DNA of 64,000 nucleotides from an uncultured Bacteroidales bacterium (lineage in GTDB: Bacteria; Bacteroidota; Bacteroidia; Bacteroidales; Paludibacteraceae): assembly GCA_900316125.1 (NCBI GenBank), contig ONBO01000006.1, positions 1 through 64,000 of the forward strand, written 5' to 3'. The position numbers and the translations under genes were made by a program. The notes beneath the pieces are model-generated. The model made no database searches. It worked only from the letters and a program-made list of their open reading frames with translations, and was not told the origin of the DNA. How positions within the stretch are numbered: the stretch's first letter is position 1; every line of letters begins with the position of its first letter. This document shows positions 2,405 to 11,872 of the stretch, in pieces.

Positions 2405-5080
2405 TTACAATTCTCGCAATATCTCTAAAAACTCTTCTTTAGTGTAGGCTCCGTCGAGTTTTGTCTTGTCAAATACCATAAAATATCTATAAATATCACC
2501 TGCCTTGTTAGCCCATGTTGTGCCAAGTTCAAGTTTTTGACGGCTATCACTATTGTCTCGGTCGTCTCCTTTGGTCTCAAGCAGGATAATATGTCCTTTT
2601 ATTGTACGAATTATAAAGTCAGGGTAATGATTGAGAAAGCCATTTATGTAAAAGCCTTGCCCCCTTTCTGGGTTGCGATGCCAAAATAGCACGTTGTCAA
2701 GGTTTGCAACAGAGTTAATTACTTTATACTCAAAGTCATTCATGTCGCCTTCTTCTGTGTATAAACCCTTCGAAAGGCTCACAGTCTTTTTTGTTATTGT
2801 CAACTTTTGTGGGAATGAATATTGTGCAATGCTTTTAATTTTACCTTTGTCCAATAGTGCTTTAAAATTATTGTGCTGATATTCTGCTATTAATTTGTCC
2901 ATTTTTTGTTTGAACGCTTGTGCAACAATAATCTCCTTGTTGAACAAATCCATTAGTTCCTCATCACTTTTGTTCTCTAATACACTTCTTATGTAATTAC
3001 TTATGTGAGGTTCGTTCACCTCATCAAAATGCAATCTTTGTGCAATCCTGCCTGTTAATTGTCTGCGTTTAGCTTCAGCATCATAACCTGCAAACATTTT
3101 GCGAACTAAATGTATTTGTCTTTCATTCAACTTAAATTGTTTAGGCACATATTCATCATCGCCTCGTTTCTCAAGGTCAATACGTACCGCTTCATGCTCT
3201 ACAGGAGATATGTTGATGTTTTTATCAGCATTCTCTAATAGAAACCCTTTTGTTAGCATGGCCTTGTTTAACAATATTTCTTCTCCATCGGGGTTGAATA
3301 TTGAATTACATTCTATCTTGATCGCAAACATTGGCAGCTTCATTTGCTTTGCTACATCGTTGAAATATTCTTTTATATGGTATGTCATTATATCATCTTT
3401 TATCTCACTGGGAATATTGCTGTTATCGTCGTCTTTAATAGACTGATTATATTGAGAACTTGCCTTGTGAGCCTGTTGCAACACCTCATCCGTATTATTA
3501 GTAGTAGCTATTGAATCCGCAATGCTCTCAGCCAAGCGTTTCCTCAGATTTCCAGAGTCAAATTCATTGTCATTATAATTGTAGTTGTCATTTTCATACA
3601 TTTCCAGTTGCGTTTGGAATTCTTGTGGCTTTTCAAAAATTGCGACTTGCCTTGGCTCAATATGGTGGTTGCCGGATATTGGCGTGGCAATGCGTGTGTC
3701 TTTTGGAGAAAAACCAGCATTGTTCAATCCATTGATAACGGATTCAATAGTTTGACGAAAATTTATTGACGATGTAAACACGTATGATAAATTAAGATAT
3801 TCGTCATCGTGCTTTGTTGCGTAGGGTAATCTAAGCACGCGTCCAACAATTTGTTCCACATCAATTTGTGATGTTTTGTTTGCAAGCGATGCCAGTATAT
3901 ATGCGAATGGACAGTCCCAACCCTCCTTTAAGGCATTAACGGTAATTATATAGCGGACTTCGCATTCTTCACTCATCAAATCAAGACCTTTTAATTCGTC
4001 CTTTTCGGCTGTCTTTATTTTTATCTGAACATCTGGAATCCCTGCTGCCACAAGTTTATGCTTCACTTTATCAAAGGTATCATTGTCTTTATCACTTTTA
4101 GGTTGTGCTTGAAAGAGTACAATTGGTCGTATATATCCTCCTCCAGCTTCACGCATATTTGCTGCTCGTTGCTCCAAGGAGCGTTGCAGTTGAATAGCAT
4201 TAACAATCACGTCCTCAGTTGAATCACGATTATAGAGAACGACAGGTAGTTTTACCATGTTGGCATCTTTCAGTTTCTTCGCATCTACAAAACTTATGAT
4301 GTTACTATTTTCTCGTGGTGTAGCGGTAAGGTCAAGTATGAAACTCGGGTTAATCTTTGTTAGAGCGTCAATTCTCATTTCTGATTTGAAATTGTGGCTC
4401 TCATCTACAATTACAACAGGGTTTAGACATGCAATAGCCTGAATAAGAGAAGTGTCATCTGCATTCTCAACACAATTGCTTCCATTAACTAGTTTAGCAT
4501 ATTCAACCAAATTGGAATTTTCTCGTAATGAACGCAGCCCTTCGTTTGTGAGTTCACCCTTTTTATTTTTTGCGGGAATGAATGATTGTACGCTTAATAC
4601 AAAAATTGTCAATTGCTCACGAATTTGGTCTGGTTGAATTCCTGTGCCCATCAATGCAGTCTCCTTGTCAACTACAACAACTCTGTTGTTAAAGTGCGTA
4701 TTAATTCGTTGGCGGTAAGGGTGTTCTGAATTGCTTAAATTCTTGTATGTCTGTTTTAAGATGCTGTCGCTTGGCACAAACCAGGCCACTACTTTAGGTT
4801 GTTCTGGTGGCAAATGGTCAAAAATAACCTTCAATGCATTAGCGGCTATAAAAGTTTTCCCACCTGCTGTAGGTACTTTGAACATTACACGGGCCACACC
4901 TGGTACGGTAGAGTTGTCGTATGAATGGATGTAACGGTTGTTTTCAATATTGCTGATGTCAACGCCCTTTTTTAGCCAAAAGTTTTTATATGCCACTTGC
5001 AGATTGTTATCTGATTTCACTTGCTCCATATAGGATGCAAGGTCATTGAGCGTATCTTGTTGATATTTTTTTAGTTCCAT
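2405..5080 (-). CDS. res: type III restriction enzyme, Res subunit
   Basis: Res is the ATP-driven motor and nuclease of a type III restriction-modification complex (Mod2Res1-2) that cuts unmodified foreign DNA. The 891 residues show a superfamily 2 helicase core: Walker A PTAGGKT at residues 70-76, DESH at about 226-229 and TATPR at 252-256. The C-terminus has a PD-(D/E)xK-type nuclease signature, HYPDF with Asp about 821 and LLETKG with Glu about 836 and Lys about 838. All key residues are present, so it looks active. It starts 8 nt after the mod stop and is surely co-transcribed with it. It may belong to a wider minus-strand block beginning with the acetyltransferase pair. Confidence 0.93.
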   Translation of the reverse strand: MELKKYQQDTLNDLASYMEQVKSDNNLQVAYKNFWLKKGVDISNIENNRYIHSYDNSTVPGVARVMFKVPTAGGKTFIAANALKVIFDHLPPEQPKVVAWFVPSDSILKQTYKNLSNSEHPYRQRINTHFNNRVVVVDKETALMGTGIQPDQIREQLTIFVLSVQSFIPAKNKKGELTNEGLRSLRENSNLVEYAKLVNGSNCVENADDTSLIQAIACLNPVVIVDESHNFKSEMRIDALTKINPSFILDLTATPRENSNIISFVDAKKLKDANMVKLPVVLYNRDSTEDVIVNAIQLQRSLEQRAANMREAGGGYIRPIVLFQAQPKSDKDNDTFDKVKHKLVAAGIPDVQIKIKTAEKDELKGLDLMSEECEVRYIITVNALKEGWDCPFAYILASLANKTSQIDVEQIVGRVLRLPYATKHDDEYLNLSYVFTSSINFRQTIESVINGLNNAGFSPKDTRIATPISGNHHIEPRQVAIFEKPQEFQTQLEMYENDNYNYNDNEFDSGNLRKRLAESIADSIATTNNTDEVLQQAHKASSQYNQSIKDDDNSNIPSEIKDDIMTYHIKEYFNDVAKQMKLPMFAIKIECNSIFNPDGEEILLNKAMLTKGFLLENADKNINISPVEHEAVRIDLEKRGDDEYVPKQFKLNERQIHLVRKMFAGYDAEAKRRQLTGRIAQRLHFDEVNEPHISNYIRSVLENKSDEELMDLFNKEIIVAQAFKQKMDKLIAEYQHNNFKALLDKGKIKSIAQYSFPQKLTITKKTVSLSKGLYTEEGDMNDFEYKVINSVANLDNVLFWHRNPERGQGFYINGFLNHYPDFIIRTIKGHIILLETKGDDRDNSDSRQKLELGTTWANKAGDIYRYFMVFDKTKLDGAYTKEEFLEILREL

Positions 5081-5088
5081 AGCAGTTT

Positions 5089-6663
5089 CTAAAGACGATT
5101 GATGTCACGAGGTATCTTCTTAAATACAATGTTGTGTGAAGACAGCCATTCTTTGTCTATTACACATTGATCTGCATAAACAACATAGGTCTCTTTTTTT
5201 TCAATAATTATGTTTAGTGTCTCGTAACTGAGTGTGGTTATACGCGTAGGCTCGTAATAAAAATAATACGCAGTATTGTTATAATTGCCCAACAGATATT
5301 TACTTTTGTTATGATTGCTATGGTATGAAGTCCGAGTTTCGCTATGCCATATATAGTGTCGTATTTTTTCTGTGTCAATAGACTCATTAAGATTCCCGTC
5401 GTCATTGAACAATTGTTCCCCTAGCTCGTAGAATGAGAAAGACCCTCCAACCCCATCTGCAGCATCCTTGCCATTGCCGTAACCATTGATTACTCGGCGC
5501 ACGCGTTCAGCCGTGATACTCTCTGCATAGTCTTCCATTTCTACCAATATAAATCTGCGGTTGCCGCCATCTTGTTTATTCATGTTCAGGACTGCGTGAG
5601 CTGTGGTGCCTGAGCCTGCAAATGAATCGAGGATTATTGAATTTTTGTCTGTGGCTAAATGAAGAATTTTCTCTATTAACATATATGGTTTTGGGGTGTC
5701 AAAAGGGAACTTTACATCATAAAAGATATCCTTAATTTGTTGTTTAGCATCTTGATTATGACCAACCTCAGTATATTTCCAAATTGTCATGGATGTGGTG
5801 CCTTGCTTTACTTCTGATAAGAATCTTTTAATTGAAGGAACGTTATTCCCACTTGAACCGAACCAAATCCTATTCTCCGATAATAATTGCTCATATGTCT
5901 CTTTTGAGAATCTCCAGCATCTACCTTGTGGAGGGTTTACTGTCCTGCCATTGGGGGTTATAATCGGGAAGTCATAGGTTGAGTTATATGTTTTTACAGA
6001 ACAGTCGCTTGGTTTCCAGGGGCCACGTGGATCATTATCAATGTTTTTATAACGAGAGTTCATCTCATTAGTTCGAGGTAATAACCCTGGCTTCCAGAGG
6101 TTCTTGTTTTTGGCATAAACTAGAATAAAATCGTGATTGTCGCTGAAATATTTTGCATCATTTTGTGGTGAGTATTTCTTTTCCCATATTATGTTATTAA
6201 CAAAGTTTCCAGCCCCGAAAATCTCGTCACAAATTAATTTTAGGTTAGCTTGTTCGTTGTCGTCAATAGAGATAAAGATAACTCCATCATTGGAGAGTAG
6301 CTTTTGCAATAGTCTAAGACGTGGATACATCATGCAAAGCCATTTATCATGGCGTGTTAGGTCTTCTGCCTCTTTCCCAACTACCTGCCCGAGCCATTTT
6401 TTTATCTTTGGACTGTTGACATTATCATTATACACCCAGTTTTCGTTGCCAGTGTTGTATGGCGGGTCTATGTAGATACATTTGATATTGCCCTCATACT
6501 GCGGCAATAGTGCTTTGAGGGCTTCAAGATTATCGCCGTGGATAATCATATTGCCGCTGGTCTCAGTGTCACCAAAAGTGTATTTTTTATCAAGTGTGCG
6601 AAATCGTACATCGTGATGGTGATTTACTACGGCGTCCTTTCCAATCCAATTTAGTGTTGGCAT
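5089..6663 (-). CDS. mod: type III site-specific adenine-N6 methyltransferase, Mod subunit
   Basis: Mod methylates one strand of an asymmetric site and gives specificity to the Res complex. The order of motifs is that of a beta-class methyltransferase: DPPYNTG (motif IV) at residues 66-72 comes before FAGSGTT (motif I, AdoMet binding) at 348-354. Residues between about 160 and 320 are the likely target recognition domain, which varies between alleles, so the recognised site cannot be read from sequence. The length of 524 is on the short side for type III Mod but complete. No simple-sequence repeat suggesting phase variation is seen in the 5' end. A terminator-bearing structured RNA lies 53 nt upstream and may control expression. 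Confidence 0.93.
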   Translation of the reverse strand: MPTLNWIGKDAVVNHHHDVRFRTLDKKYTFGDTETSGNMIIHGDNLEALKALLPQYEGNIKCIYIDPPYNTGNENWVYNDNVNSPKIKKWLGQVVGKEAEDLTRHDKWLCMMYPRLRLLQKLLSNDGVIFISIDDNEQANLKLICDEIFGAGNFVNNIIWEKKYSPQNDAKYFSDNHDFILVYAKNKNLWKPGLLPRTNEMNSRYKNIDNDPRGPWKPSDCSVKTYNSTYDFPIITPNGRTVNPPQGRCWRFSKETYEQLLSENRIWFGSSGNNVPSIKRFLSEVKQGTTSMTIWKYTEVGHNQDAKQQIKDIFYDVKFPFDTPKPYMLIEKILHLATDKNSIILDSFAGSGTTAHAVLNMNKQDGGNRRFILVEMEDYAESITAERVRRVINGYGNGKDAADGVGGSFSFYELGEQLFNDDGNLNESIDTEKIRHYIWHSETRTSYHSNHNKSKYLLGNYNNTAYYFYYEPTRITTLSYETLNIIIEKKETYVVYADQCVIDKEWLSSHNIVFKKIPRDINRL

Positions 6664-6715
6664 GTATTTCGTTTTACTGGCGTGTGCTTATCATCAGAGG
6701 CAGGTGGTAGAGCAT

Positions 6716-6746
6716 AAAAAAACATGGACGGTATCCCTATCCATGT
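6716..6746 (-). terminator. terminator at the end of the structured RNA
   Basis: On the minus strand ACATGGA (6746-6740) pairs with TCCATGT (6728-6722) and is followed by a run of seven T. It lies upstream of mod, so mod and res need read-through or another promoter. Confidence 0.8.
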
Positions 6747-6888
6747 CCTAAAGGCTCTCGCATGCCTGCAAAACCAGATAAGTCACGCCCATGCCTAACG
6801 CATGGACGCTTGCGACTTATTCTTCGGTTTTGCTTTTTGAATTTGCGAGATTCTTAGGACTTTCCGAATAAATAGCAAACGCTATGAT
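6716..6888 (-). ncRNA. candidate structured RNA between acetyltransferase and mod
   Basis: Read on the minus strand, four helices fit together. P1 pairs 6844-6860 with 6745-6762 (GUCCUAA with UUAGGAC, UCUCGCA with UGCGAGA). P2 pairs 6814-6833 with 6768-6784 (GCAAAACC with GGUUUUGC, AUAAGUC with GACUUAU). P3 is the apical hairpin 6786-6808 (CCAUGC loop GUUAG GCAUGG, extended by three pairs). A terminator hairpin follows at 6716-6746. A small hairpin (AUAGC GUUU GCUAU) lies at the 5' side. No open reading frame explains the conservation of both arms. The P1 3' arm and the terminator 5' arm share two nucleotides. It could be the 3' UTR of the acetyltransferase mRNA, a leader controlling mod, or an independent RNA; no convincing promoter of its own is seen. 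I do not recognise the family. Confidence 0.6.
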
Positions 6889-6944
6889 TAATAATATGTT
6901 ATAGTTTAAATGTTGGTTGTTTGTTAATGATCTCTTTGTGAATA

Positions 6945-7496
6945 TTATATATTAGAAATTTGTTGGTCTTTAAATGGCTTCAGGTCAAAATACATCAGGC
7001 GTGTTTTATCAAGATAGTCTAATGTTGTGAAAAAGTCAAATCCATTCTTTTGATAAAATCTTATTGCATTGGCGTATGCATCAACGGTAAGAAAACGGCA
7101 TCCTAATTTTTGCTCAGTTATGAGAAATGCTTTGACAAGGTCAAGTATTTGAGTCCCTAAACCGCAGTGTGAATATTCTTTGGCTACCGCTAAACGCCCA
7201 ATTTTTGCTGAGGGATAACTATGACGACGCTTATTGTTGCGAATGTGTCTGTTTATTCTATTCCAGATGCCTTTTGACATTGGGTCATAAGCAACTTTGT
7301 CGTTAAGTATGCTAAAGTATGCGACAGTTTGCTCTCTCTTTCTGTCGATAAACATGTATGTTACAGACATCAAAGCTGCTGAATAGTTCTTTGCATCATC
7401 TATCAAAAAACTATTCAAATCATCATCTTCTGAACAAAACGGCAACATCTCCGTGTTCTCTGAGAGACGGACGAAATCAAAGTCTGCTAATTGCAT
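6945..7496 (-). CDS. GNAT-family N-acetyltransferase, possibly a TacT-like toxin
   Basis: The 183 residues fit a GNAT fold that transfers acetyl from acetyl-CoA to an amine. The motif A region is IGRLAVAKEYSHCGLGTQILD at about residues 99-119; the usual R/Q-x-x-G-x-G is S-x-x-G-x-G here. The C-terminal FYQKNGF at 147-153 is the typical beta6-beta7 tyrosine region. The N-terminal half (FCSEDDDLNSFLIDDA) and the RLAV strand resemble TacT/AtaT-type toxins that acetylate charged tRNAs. It starts 7 nt after a 52-residue partner on the same strand, the arrangement of an antitoxin-toxin pair. Substrate is unknown; an ordinary small-molecule or protein acetyltransferase is the alternative. Confidence 0.75.
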   Translation of the reverse strand: MQLADFDFVRLSENTEMLPFCSEDDDLNSFLIDDAKNYSAALMSVTYMFIDRKREQTVAYFSILNDKVAYDPMSKGIWNRINRHIRNNKRRHSYPSAKIGRLAVAKEYSHCGLGTQILDLVKAFLITEQKLGCRFLTVDAYANAIRFYQKNGFDFFTTLDYLDKTRLMYFDLKPFKDQQISNI

Positions 7497-7503
7497 AATT
7501 ATT

Positions 7504-7662
7504 TTACCACGAAAACGAGGCGTTAGCCTTTACAGCACGATACGTGTCCATCGCACGTCTAACCTCCTCGGCTGAGACTGGACGCGGATTGTTTACGGCT
7601 TGCTCAAAGCGGATAGCATCTTGACCGTAAAGAGTTGGTGTTTCTTTTATTGGACGTGCCAT
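7504..7662 (-). CDS. small antitoxin-like protein upstream of the acetyltransferase
   Basis: A 52-residue reading frame (MARPIKETPTLYGQDAIRF start, ASFSW end) lies between a canonical promoter (7683-7713) and the GNAT gene, 7 nt apart. It is basic at the N-terminus, and residues 29-45 (VSAEEVRRAMDTYRAVK) look helical. Small proteins starting with MARPIKETP-like sequence commonly precede GNAT or toxin genes in Bacteroidota, so an antitoxin role is plausible. It lacks a recognisable ribbon-helix-helix signature, so I infer the role from position and size only. The frame is open, codon use matches its neighbours, and the ATG is the first after the promoter. Confidence 0.6.
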   Translation of the reverse strand: MARPIKETPTLYGQDAIRFEQAVNNPRPVSAEEVRRAMDTYRAVKANASFSW

Positions 7663-10050: not shown

Positions 10051-10082
10051 TTTTGTCGTTAAGTAAAAAATAACTAAATTTG
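10051..10082 (+). promoter_or_regulatory. guaA promoter
   Basis: TTTTG (10051-10055), 19 nt, TAAATTTG (10075-10082). It lies divergent to the glycosyltransferase promoter and rules out the in-frame TTG at 10080 as a start. Confidence 0.75.
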
Positions 10083-10112
10083 CAGTTCAAACTAAACACC
10101 GCATCTTACATT

Positions 10113-11872
10113 ATGCAGAAAATTGTGATTTTGGACTTTGGCGGGCAGTATGCTCACCTTATTGCAAACAGAGTCCGCAGATTAGGAGTGTTTACTGAGA
10201 TACATTCACCAGCCGCGCCTGTGAGCGAGCTGGAGGGTGCCGCTGGTATAATATATAGTGGTGGCCCGTCAAGTGTGTATGATGAGAACGCTCCTGAGTA
10301 CAATCCTGAAATTATAAACATCCCTGTACCTAAGTTAGGTATCTGCTATGGTCACCAGTTGATGGCCTCGCAGCTTGGCGGCACTGTAAGGCAGGGCAAG
10401 GTGAAGGAGTACGGTATTGCCATGCTTGAGGTTAAGGAGAGTACCCACCCTCTGCTTGAAGGCATCCCGGCTGAGAGCCAGATGTGGATGAGCCACGGCG
10501 ATGTGGTGGATAATCTGCCTGAGGGATACCGTATAATTGCATCAACCAAGGATTGCCCAACCGCAGCTGTTGCTTTTGATGAAAGAAAGCTGTTTGGCAT
10601 ACAGTTCCATCCAGAGGTTACACACAGTAAGTTTGGTTTGAAACTTCTTGATAACTTTATAAATATATGTGGCTGCAAGAGGGAGTGGGATATGAAGAGC
10701 TATATGCCTGTAATTACTGAAAAAATCAGGCGTGAGGTAGGCGGCCGTAATGTATTCCTGCTTGTCTCAGGTGGTGTTGACAGCACCGTGGCGTTTGTGC
10801 TGCTTAACCGTGTGCTCGGCCCTGACCGTGTGCTCGGTTTGCACATTGATAACGGTATGATGCGTTTGGGTGAGAGCAGCCAGATTATGGATTTCCTCAA
10901 GGCTGAGGGTATGAATAATCTGCGTGTGGTTGATGCGTCAGAGGAGTTTCTTGATGATTTGAAGGGTATTACAGCTCCTGAACAGAAGCGTAAACTTATA
11001 GGCGCCCGTTTCCTTAAGGTTAAGGATGCCGAGATGCAGAAACTAAATCTTGATCCTCAGAAATGGATGATTGCTCAAGGTACCAGAACGCTGACCTTAT
11101 AAAGACTCACCATAACCGTGTTAAAGAGGTTATGGATCTGATGGCTCAGGGGCTTTTGCTTGAGCCTCTTGCTGATTTGTACAAAGATGAGGTTCGTATG
11201 CTTGGTGAGGAGCTAGGCATACCTAAGAGTCTTGTTTGGCGTCATCCGTTCCCTGGTCCGGGTTTGGGTGTGCGTCTGCTTTGCAGCGATGCGACCGGTA
11301 CGTTTGCTTCAAATGGTGATATCGCAGGACTTGATGCATATCTCAAGGATAACGGCATAGACGGAACTGCGCTGCCAATAAAGAGTGTGGGCGTGCAGGG
11401 TGATGGCAGAACATACGCCCAGCCGTTCCTTATCACTACTGGCAGTGTATCTTGGAAGGAGTGTGAGAAGTTCAGCACTGAGATTACCAACCGTTTCCGT
11501 GAACTTAACCGTGTTATATGGCAGGTGAGTGCTGTGAGTGCTGAGGCTCCTAAGGCGTGCGTGCAGTATGCGGAGCGCCAGAACTTTGACACTTTGCGCA
11601 AGTTTGACAATATATGTACGGAGTTCCTTCTCAAATATGATTTATACCAGTCTATATGGCAGATGCCGGTGGTGCTTCTTCCGCTAACTGTTGGTGGCAA
11701 GCCTGCTGTGGTTATGCGCCCTGTGAACAGTACTGAGGCTATGACTGCGAATTTTGCCTGCATAGACCGTGCGCTTCTATCTGAGCTTTGGTCCGCTCTT
11801 GAGCAGGCTGGCGCCGGGGCCTTATGGTATGATATCACCCATAAACCTCCTGGCACAATAGAGTGGGAATGA
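10113..11872 (+). pseudogene. guaA: GMP synthase (glutamine-hydrolysing), disrupted by a short frameshifting deletion
   Basis: GuaA makes GMP from XMP, ATP and glutamine. Residues 1-324 hold an intact glutamine amidotransferase (GICYGHQ, Cys78; FHPEV, His166 and Glu168) and the ATP pyrophosphatase P-loop SGGVDS at 219-224. The frame then runs WMIAQGT, RTLTL and stops at 11102. The expected continuation IYPDTIES plus about three residues is absent; the remainder resumes in another frame as QNADLIKTHHNR and continues normally to 11872 (RHPFPGPG, then KPPGTIEWE end). About 34 nt appear to be missing at 11082-11084. The C-terminal part is longer than the common 510-525-residue bacterial enzymes, like the long GuaA type with an insertion. 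Either a real null mutation or an assembly collapse; as written no functional enzyme results. Confidence 0.88.

Follow-up and report, generated by a model that had tools for sequence, protein, structure and literature searches.

The described RNA systems closest to the element studied here are the terminating riboswitches, such as those of the purine and cobalamin classes, in which a P1-closed junction is combined with loop-loop contacts, and the EAR (epsC) RNA of Bacillales, which occupies a comparable position. For the same clade as the RNA reported here, conserved structured RNAs including Bacteroidales-1, Bacteroides-1, Bacteroid-trp and other Bacteroidetes motifs were presented in a study that also lists epsC (PMC2864571), and a metagenome screen yielded 3,161 structures, with candidates named HMP2_* (PMC8040213). 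Large cis-regulatory RNA classes that are missing from Rfam are rare. In the 64,000-nucleotide stretch of Paludibacteraceae DNA analyzed here (the window), we consider it likely that positions 6716-6890 of the minus strand encode a cis-acting leader RNA that works as a transcription attenuator and represents an undescribed family of Bacteroidales.

The leader RNA of the window

The genes around the leader and the parts of the RNA, the latter in approximate 5' to 3' order, are as follows.

2405..5080, minus strand: res, type III restriction subunit (Pfam ResIII, 1.6e-13)
5089..6663, minus strand: mod, type III DNA methyltransferase, first gene 3' of the leader (Pfam N6_N4_Mtase, 3.6e-43; PADLOC MTase_III, 2.8e-225)
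6716..6890, minus strand: leader RNA, conserved extent from the 5' strand of the long-range helix P0 to the terminator U-tract (R1 match, fold and G015 homologue)
6945..7496, minus strand: GNAT acetyltransferase, 5' of the leader (Pfam Acetyltransf_7, 4.9e-9)
6864..6890, minus strand: P0a/HP0, 5' strand TAGCGTTTGCTATTTATTCGG, forming the local hairpin GCGTTTGC or pairing at long range with P0b
6860-6854 with 6751-6745, minus strand: helix P1, 7 bp, GTCCTAA/TTAGGAC (sequence)
6854..6860, minus strand: 5' strand of P1, GTCCTAA (top 8 covarying column pairs, 129 sequences; own versus swapped energy)
6839..6853, minus strand: kissing hairpin 1, GAAU(CUCGCAA)AUUC (invariant in 40 seed-selected sequences; loop and stem covary in model hits)
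6850-6844 with 6762-6756, minus strand: second 7-bp helix, TCTCGCA/TGCGAGA (sequence)
6826..6833 with 6775-6768, minus strand: helix P3, 8 bp, GCAAAACC/GGTTTTGC (own versus swapped pairing energy)
6805..6827, minus strand: P0b, CCGAAGAATAAGTCGCAAGCGTC, partner of P0a, overlapping P4a and P5a (own-versus-swapped test)
6785..6809, minus strand: P5 hairpin, GCGTCCATGC-GTTAG-GCATGGGCGT (-17.6 kcal/mol)
6775..6795, minus strand: ATa, GGCATGGGCGTGACTTATCTG, pairing with both terminator arms (ATb) and overlapping P5b, P4b and the start of P3b
6752..6767, minus strand: kissing hairpin 2, AGGC(AUGCGAGA)GCCU (100% paired in the 40-sequence alignment; loop covaries)
6745..6751, minus strand: 3' strand of P1, TTAGGAC, its last two bases common to the local terminator hairpin
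6716..6746, minus strand: intrinsic terminator, local hairpin ACATGGA...TCCATGT (-11.9 kcal/mol) with a 7-U tract (sequence, folding)

A sequence-only reading of this DNA had proposed a strongly structured RNA at 6716-6888, with three nested helices and a T7 terminator on the coding strand, and all of its elements are indeed present on the minus strand where it placed them. The strength of the structure was borne out by folding, as the minimum free energy of 6700-6900 (minus strand) is -66.7 kcal/mol versus -45.9 +/- 4.2 kcal/mol in dinucleotide shuffles (z = -5.0), and none of 200 shuffles folds as well. The nesting needs revision: the helices exist, but the homologues reveal that the second 7-bp pairing is a loop-loop (kissing) contact, which in the window copy joins the small hairpins GAAU(CUCGCAA)AUUC and AGGC(AUGCGAGA)GCCU. 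P3 is followed by a 7-bp helix (ATAAGTC/GACTTAT), and the last hairpin, in a 9-bp reading, is CGTCCATGC-GTTAG-GCATGGGCG. The terminator has its run of seven T ending at 6716, and the two bases that it was said to share with P1 are A6746 and C6745. Its arms double as ATb (6742-6722) in this copy, where the AT and P0 duplexes amount to -20.6 and -20.9 kcal/mol, respectively.

The window copy is a short form of the family, in which the variable hairpin domain found in most members (about 30-100 nt in the long ones) is replaced by a 9-10-bp hairpin with a GUUAG loop, all other parts being present. The same short form was identified at loci L049, L270, L279, L280, L293 and L294. A restriction of the short form to restriction-modification genes was considered and dropped, as the short copies L211 and L212 precede other genes.

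The start of mod at 6663 lies 52 nt past the terminator end at 6716. In G015, a second species of the genus, the RNA and mod are kept together in the same leader layout with a different gene upstream, and the GNAT gene is therefore not kept with the leader. A 52-aa ORF without a Pfam match precedes the GNAT gene (6945-7662, minus strand), in a layout like that of a GNAT toxin-antitoxin pair. Elsewhere in the window, guaA (GMP synthase; 10080-11872, plus strand) is split into two overlapping frames, a GATase part (10080-11102) and a C-terminal part (11063-11872), which reflects either an assembly frameshift or a genuine lesion.

Conserved and mutually exclusive pairings

The R1 covariance model matches the window copy at 6742-6862 with 77 bits. 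Covariation among homologues of the RNA is very strong, which excludes the lack of covariation that the earlier reading had named as a ground for giving up its proposal. The eight pairs of P1 are the eight strongest covarying column pairs by mutual information among 129 sequences, compared unaligned in fixed-register windows. Over 128 loci, the pairing energy of P1 is -10.6 kcal/mol for own partners and -3.4 kcal/mol for partners taken from other loci, and the corresponding values for P3 are -15.6 and -7.4 kcal/mol, the own partner being better in 97.3% of cases. The kissing loops form at least six Watson-Crick pairs in 45 of 46 model hits, which were chosen independently of the loop sequence, while swapped loops average 3.1; about 25 different loop pairs occur, e.g. 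CUUCGCA/UGCGAAG, UCUGGUA/UACCAGA and CCUAGGAA/UUCCUAGG. The stem of kissing hairpin 1 has at least 4 bp in 40 of 45 model hits and exists in compensated variants (GAAU/AUUC, CAAAU/AUUUG and UAAAU/AUUUA).

Two long-range duplexes cross P1, namely P0, which joins the 5' end with the middle of the RNA, and AT, which joins GGCGUGGG...GUUGCUCGUUC with both terminator arms. Own partners of P0 beat swapped ones in 86% of comparisons (128 loci), and the range for the P0 and AT duplexes is 83-86%; the test is less decisive here than for P1 and P3 because part of each duplex is conserved sequence. In a 40-sequence alignment, P1, the kissing hairpins and P0/AT together have 93.3% of their cells paired, compared with 29-48% when slid by 1-3 columns, the covariation score is 0.446 versus at most 0.124 in the slid controls, and 26 of 42 pairs are changed on both sides. 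Within the same alignment, the HPK helix is 91.9% paired, the AT helices (helices 5 and 6) are 92.1% paired with double changes in 13 pairs, and kissing hairpin 2 shows a single double change (GGU/ACC in L049).

The local alternatives HP0, P4 and TERM are conserved too, with 91.9% of cells paired for the whole structure and 78.8% for the terminator helix alone. The HP0/P4/TERM and HPK/ATO/ATI sets are thus each conserved but cannot form together, since they have strands in common. In 109 of 132 loci, P1' runs into the local terminator arm. The local terminator hairpin either is weak or stands apart from the U-tract at 21 of 128 loci, and the AT duplex averages -31.5 kcal/mol. The pairing of AT with the 3' arm of the terminator may act for or against termination, as the long AT duplex ends at the same U-tract as the local hairpin and is better conserved.

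Distribution and genomic context of the family

A DNA search of the host's own genome detected no near-identical copies of the window element, and returned two short pieces that match GAATCTCGCAAATTC and GGCATGCGAGAGCCT and are separated by 180 nt on contig C40; these belong to a second, longer element (fold z = -8.5), of which they form the arms. In 250 genomes of the host's family, the exact 15-mer was found 35 times and its reversed control once, and a two-part pattern identified at least 119 exact-seed loci in public genomes, the matches listed including Prevotella, Bacteroides, Muribaculaceae, Barnesiella, Coprobacter, Alistipes and Paludibacteraceae. R1 matches eight copies in the own genome, on contigs C19, C23, C34, C37, C40, C43 (the window), C51 and C56. 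Within the genus, 14 of 16 genomes carry between one and nine copies; across the order, 19 of 119 sampled genomes have matches, with up to nine per genome; and a class-wide sample of 197 genomes produced only two weak matches outside the order. Plasmids of Phocaeicola dorei and P. vulgatus also carry the RNA, with a hypothetical gene in the same direction starting 63-64 nt further on, and two viral contigs contain copies as well; a blastn search of plasmids with the window copy gave a chance Vibrio piece only. Near a leader copy in another genome of the genus (L006, 601-636, minus strand), the Rfam DUF805b cis-regulatory RNA was identified at 39.8 bits.

The earlier reading did not recognize the family, and neither does Rfam 15: the whole window matches no Rfam family at threshold, and scans of single elements gave nothing credible even at E <= 10. 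A literature search with the conserved letters led only to an unrelated plant paper, and searches on leaders and attenuation indicate that the family is not described in the searchable literature. The RNA is apparently a member of a large and undescribed Bacteroidales family, of which an earlier anonymous prediction in the lists of metagenome screens is possible.

The multiplicity of copies, some of them on plasmids and phage contigs, might suggest a mobile or repeat element (REP- or MITE-like, or an IS end) that landed before genes by chance, and the earlier reading had viewed a dispersed repeat as a danger to its proposal. The recurrence is real, but the eight copies of the own genome are diverged and each heads a gene. 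As the copies are in general highly diverged with compensatory changes, keep a constant orientation with respect to the following gene and a fixed promoter position, and include, in the own genome, no near-identical ones scattered independently of neighboring genes, we give this explanation hardly any credence.

The leader is located upstream of very different genes. In the own genome these encode a 235-aa protein without a Pfam match (L004), a protein with a weak uracil-DNA-glycosylase match below the cutoff (E = 0.005; L227), a 622-aa lipoprotein-like protein (L228), a 611-aa membrane protein (L229), a BspA-like leucine-rich protein (L230) and a 214-aa protein of unknown function (L231). The copy on C51 (L232) heads an operon that, from its sequence, reads as a TerY-P-like triad of VWA, PP2C phosphatase and protein kinase-like genes; its kissing-loop pair differs (CCUGAGA/UCUCAGG). 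Among 121 downstream genes, 92 Pfam families are represented, most commonly leucine-rich (BspA-type) repeats (6), DUF3575 (4) and PEGA (3), followed by restriction-modification families (N6_N4_Mtase, N6_Mtase, PvuRts1I-like and type IIG), FRG and DUF2971. No link to a single protein family emerged, the commonest one accounting for only 6 of 121. By a simple heuristic, 53% of downstream genes versus 30% of upstream genes appear to encode exported or lipid-anchored proteins. The upstream genes belong to other families and include matches to other PADLOC models, for which reason we do not claim an overall enrichment of defence genes. The RNA directly precedes 8 of 30 type III mod homologues.

Several further observations concern the neighborhoods. 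On the upstream side of leaders, AAA_14/DUF4143 ATPases (7 and 6 of 123) and ORF6N/RhuM proteins are encountered repeatedly, which suggests shared insertion hotspots. At L046, L252 and L264, short HTH proteins of one type (e.g. MAHIGQLIRDELKQQGRTVTWLAKAINCDRTNIYNIF...) are encoded within a few hundred bases after the leader. At L289 (G147, 145-300), CAGCAACAGAAATTTCGCCAAAA, comprising the P1 5' strand and the first kissing hairpin, recurs after the leader copy, immediately ahead of the start codon of mod. Two loci of one genus (L071 and L072, in G033 and G061) have nearly the same leader and similar upstream genes, while their downstream operons, of related layouts with tubulin-like proteins, differ in sequence, as if cargo had been swapped behind the leader.

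The position of the RNA relative to genes is strongly biased. By mechanical ORF calls, the next gene is co-directional with the RNA in 127 of 135 loci and the preceding gene in 68 of 125 (68:57); for the loci found by the model, the corresponding counts are 35 of 38 (35:3) and 19:19. In 134 loci, the Bacteroidetes promoter element TAnnTTTG is matched 113 times at -140 to -80, compared with 5 times for the reversed motif, whereas the 200 nt past the terminator contain it at background level only (10 versus 8 reversed, 141 loci). At most loci, therefore, the gene apparently has no other promoter, and transcription seems to reach it by way of the RNA and its terminator. Before the window copy, the canonical TAnnTTTG is absent at the usual place, and transcription may come from the GNAT operon or a weaker promoter.

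As far as sequence layout can tell, the RNA serves as a leader rather than as an independent small RNA. A small RNA that acts in trans, or the RNA component of a two-part element, merely positioned before genes, could account for the own promoter and own terminator of most copies and for the several copies per genome. It is nevertheless improbable in view of the 127:8 co-direction with the next gene, which likewise leaves unexplained the stable stand-alone small RNA entertained earlier, and in view of the missing second promoter and the missing constant partner protein (no downstream Pfam family exceeds 6 of 121). The further suggestion of an RNA component of a toxin system finds neither a common downstream protein nor tandem repeats: where a ToxI-like type III toxin-antitoxin locus was looked for, the RNA proved to be a single structured unit, its neighbor in the window is mod, and no ToxN-like family is among the 25 commonest downstream families. 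Nor does the setting of the RNA match that of retron, bridge or omega RNAs, as reverse transcriptase, IS110 recombinase and TnpB/IscB are absent beside the window copy and from the 25 commonest downstream or upstream families.

Proposed attenuation and comparison with known RNAs

The family seems to act as a riboswitch-like transcription attenuator before defence, surface and other accessory genes. At the family level the RNA lies between promoter and gene, on the strand of the gene, and its end terminator would compete with another conserved fold, as the overlapping conserved pairings suggest. The attenuation of mod and res that the sequence-only reading had offered as one option gains support from the co-directional downstream genes, the promoter before the RNA with none after the terminator, the competing conserved folds and the recurrence before type III mod genes. 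In the proposed mechanism, RNA polymerase would produce the leader ahead of mod-res and either stop after about 170-300 nt, if the terminator stem forms, or proceed into mod-res, if the terminator strands are sequestered. The nested fold would have P1 closing a junction with P3, P4 and P5, the end hairpins kissing and ATa buried; the alternative fold would consist of P0 and the long terminator duplex ATa/ATb. The choice may be set by a signal (small molecule, ion or protein) that stabilizes the P1/kissing-loop core. The folded core probably corresponds to read-through, a sign favored because ATa is buried in the P1-closed fold, which also draws bases from the local terminator, and because the local hairpin is weak or off the U-tract at some loci while AT is on average strong. 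As the downstream genes have no common pathway, we suggest no ligand. It is conceivable, and we propose it only tentatively, that the family is a new riboswitch-like class of Bacteroidales in which one signal gates restriction-modification and anti-phage genes, lipoproteins and surface repeat proteins together by releasing termination.

Three other ways in which a leader might act were weighed. Recognition of the core by one regulatory protein, acting on termination or on mRNA stability, would suit the heterogeneous regulon and the conserved core, which is rich in structure with few conserved unpaired bases; we regard such a protein-binding 5' UTR as rather unlikely. Its termination form is a version of the attenuator reading, and its stability form is a true rival. 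In processive antitermination of the EAR or LoaP type, the RNA would alter polymerase to pass operon terminators without any switch, and a large leader with a pseudoknot, heading accessory genes and operons, would be in keeping with it. Yet terminator-like sites are rare within the first 200 nt past the leader (4 of 142 loci versus 1 in the reversed control), only one gene follows at many loci, the RNA ends in its own terminator, and Rfam gives no match to epsC/EAR at E <= 10, so that this mechanism is unlikely. Attenuation of the trp type through a translated leader peptide would likewise involve two alternative folds and a terminator. It was rejected on the depletion, in the 5' part of the leader, of ORFs that start with ATG and have 7 codons or more (64 of 143 versus 104 of 143 in shuffles), and we consider it very improbable.

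With up to about nine copies per genome in a dominant order of the gut and rumen, including cultured Barnesiella and Phocaeicola dorei/vulgatus plasmids, the leader family, read as an attenuator, opens a way to study how Bacteroidales regulate restriction-modification and other accessory genes whose constant expression is costly. Should one ligand or one protein be sensed, the regulon would reveal the genes that the cell treats as one 'on demand' set.

Among known RNAs, the Bacteroidetes motifs (PMC2864571) are conserved structured RNAs of the same clade, and their Rfam models match none of the tested copies even at E <= 10. The HMP2_* candidates (PMC8040213) could hold unnamed fragments of the leader family; the searched main-text passages of that paper describe none with its structure or context. 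EAR (epsC, RF01735) is also a pseudoknotted leader of accessory operons, but it belongs to another clade and has another structure, and the present family has its own terminator and no sequence or model match to it. The terminating riboswitches are similar in their 5' leader position, covarying P1, kissing hairpins, mutually exclusive terminator and occurrence in one or several copies per genome. In contrast to them, the family matches no Rfam aptamer, its regulon is not a metabolic pathway, and its P1, P0 and terminator duplex interlock as a chain instead of forming a simple aptamer with an expression platform, an unusual fold that makes the RNA a good target for structural work.
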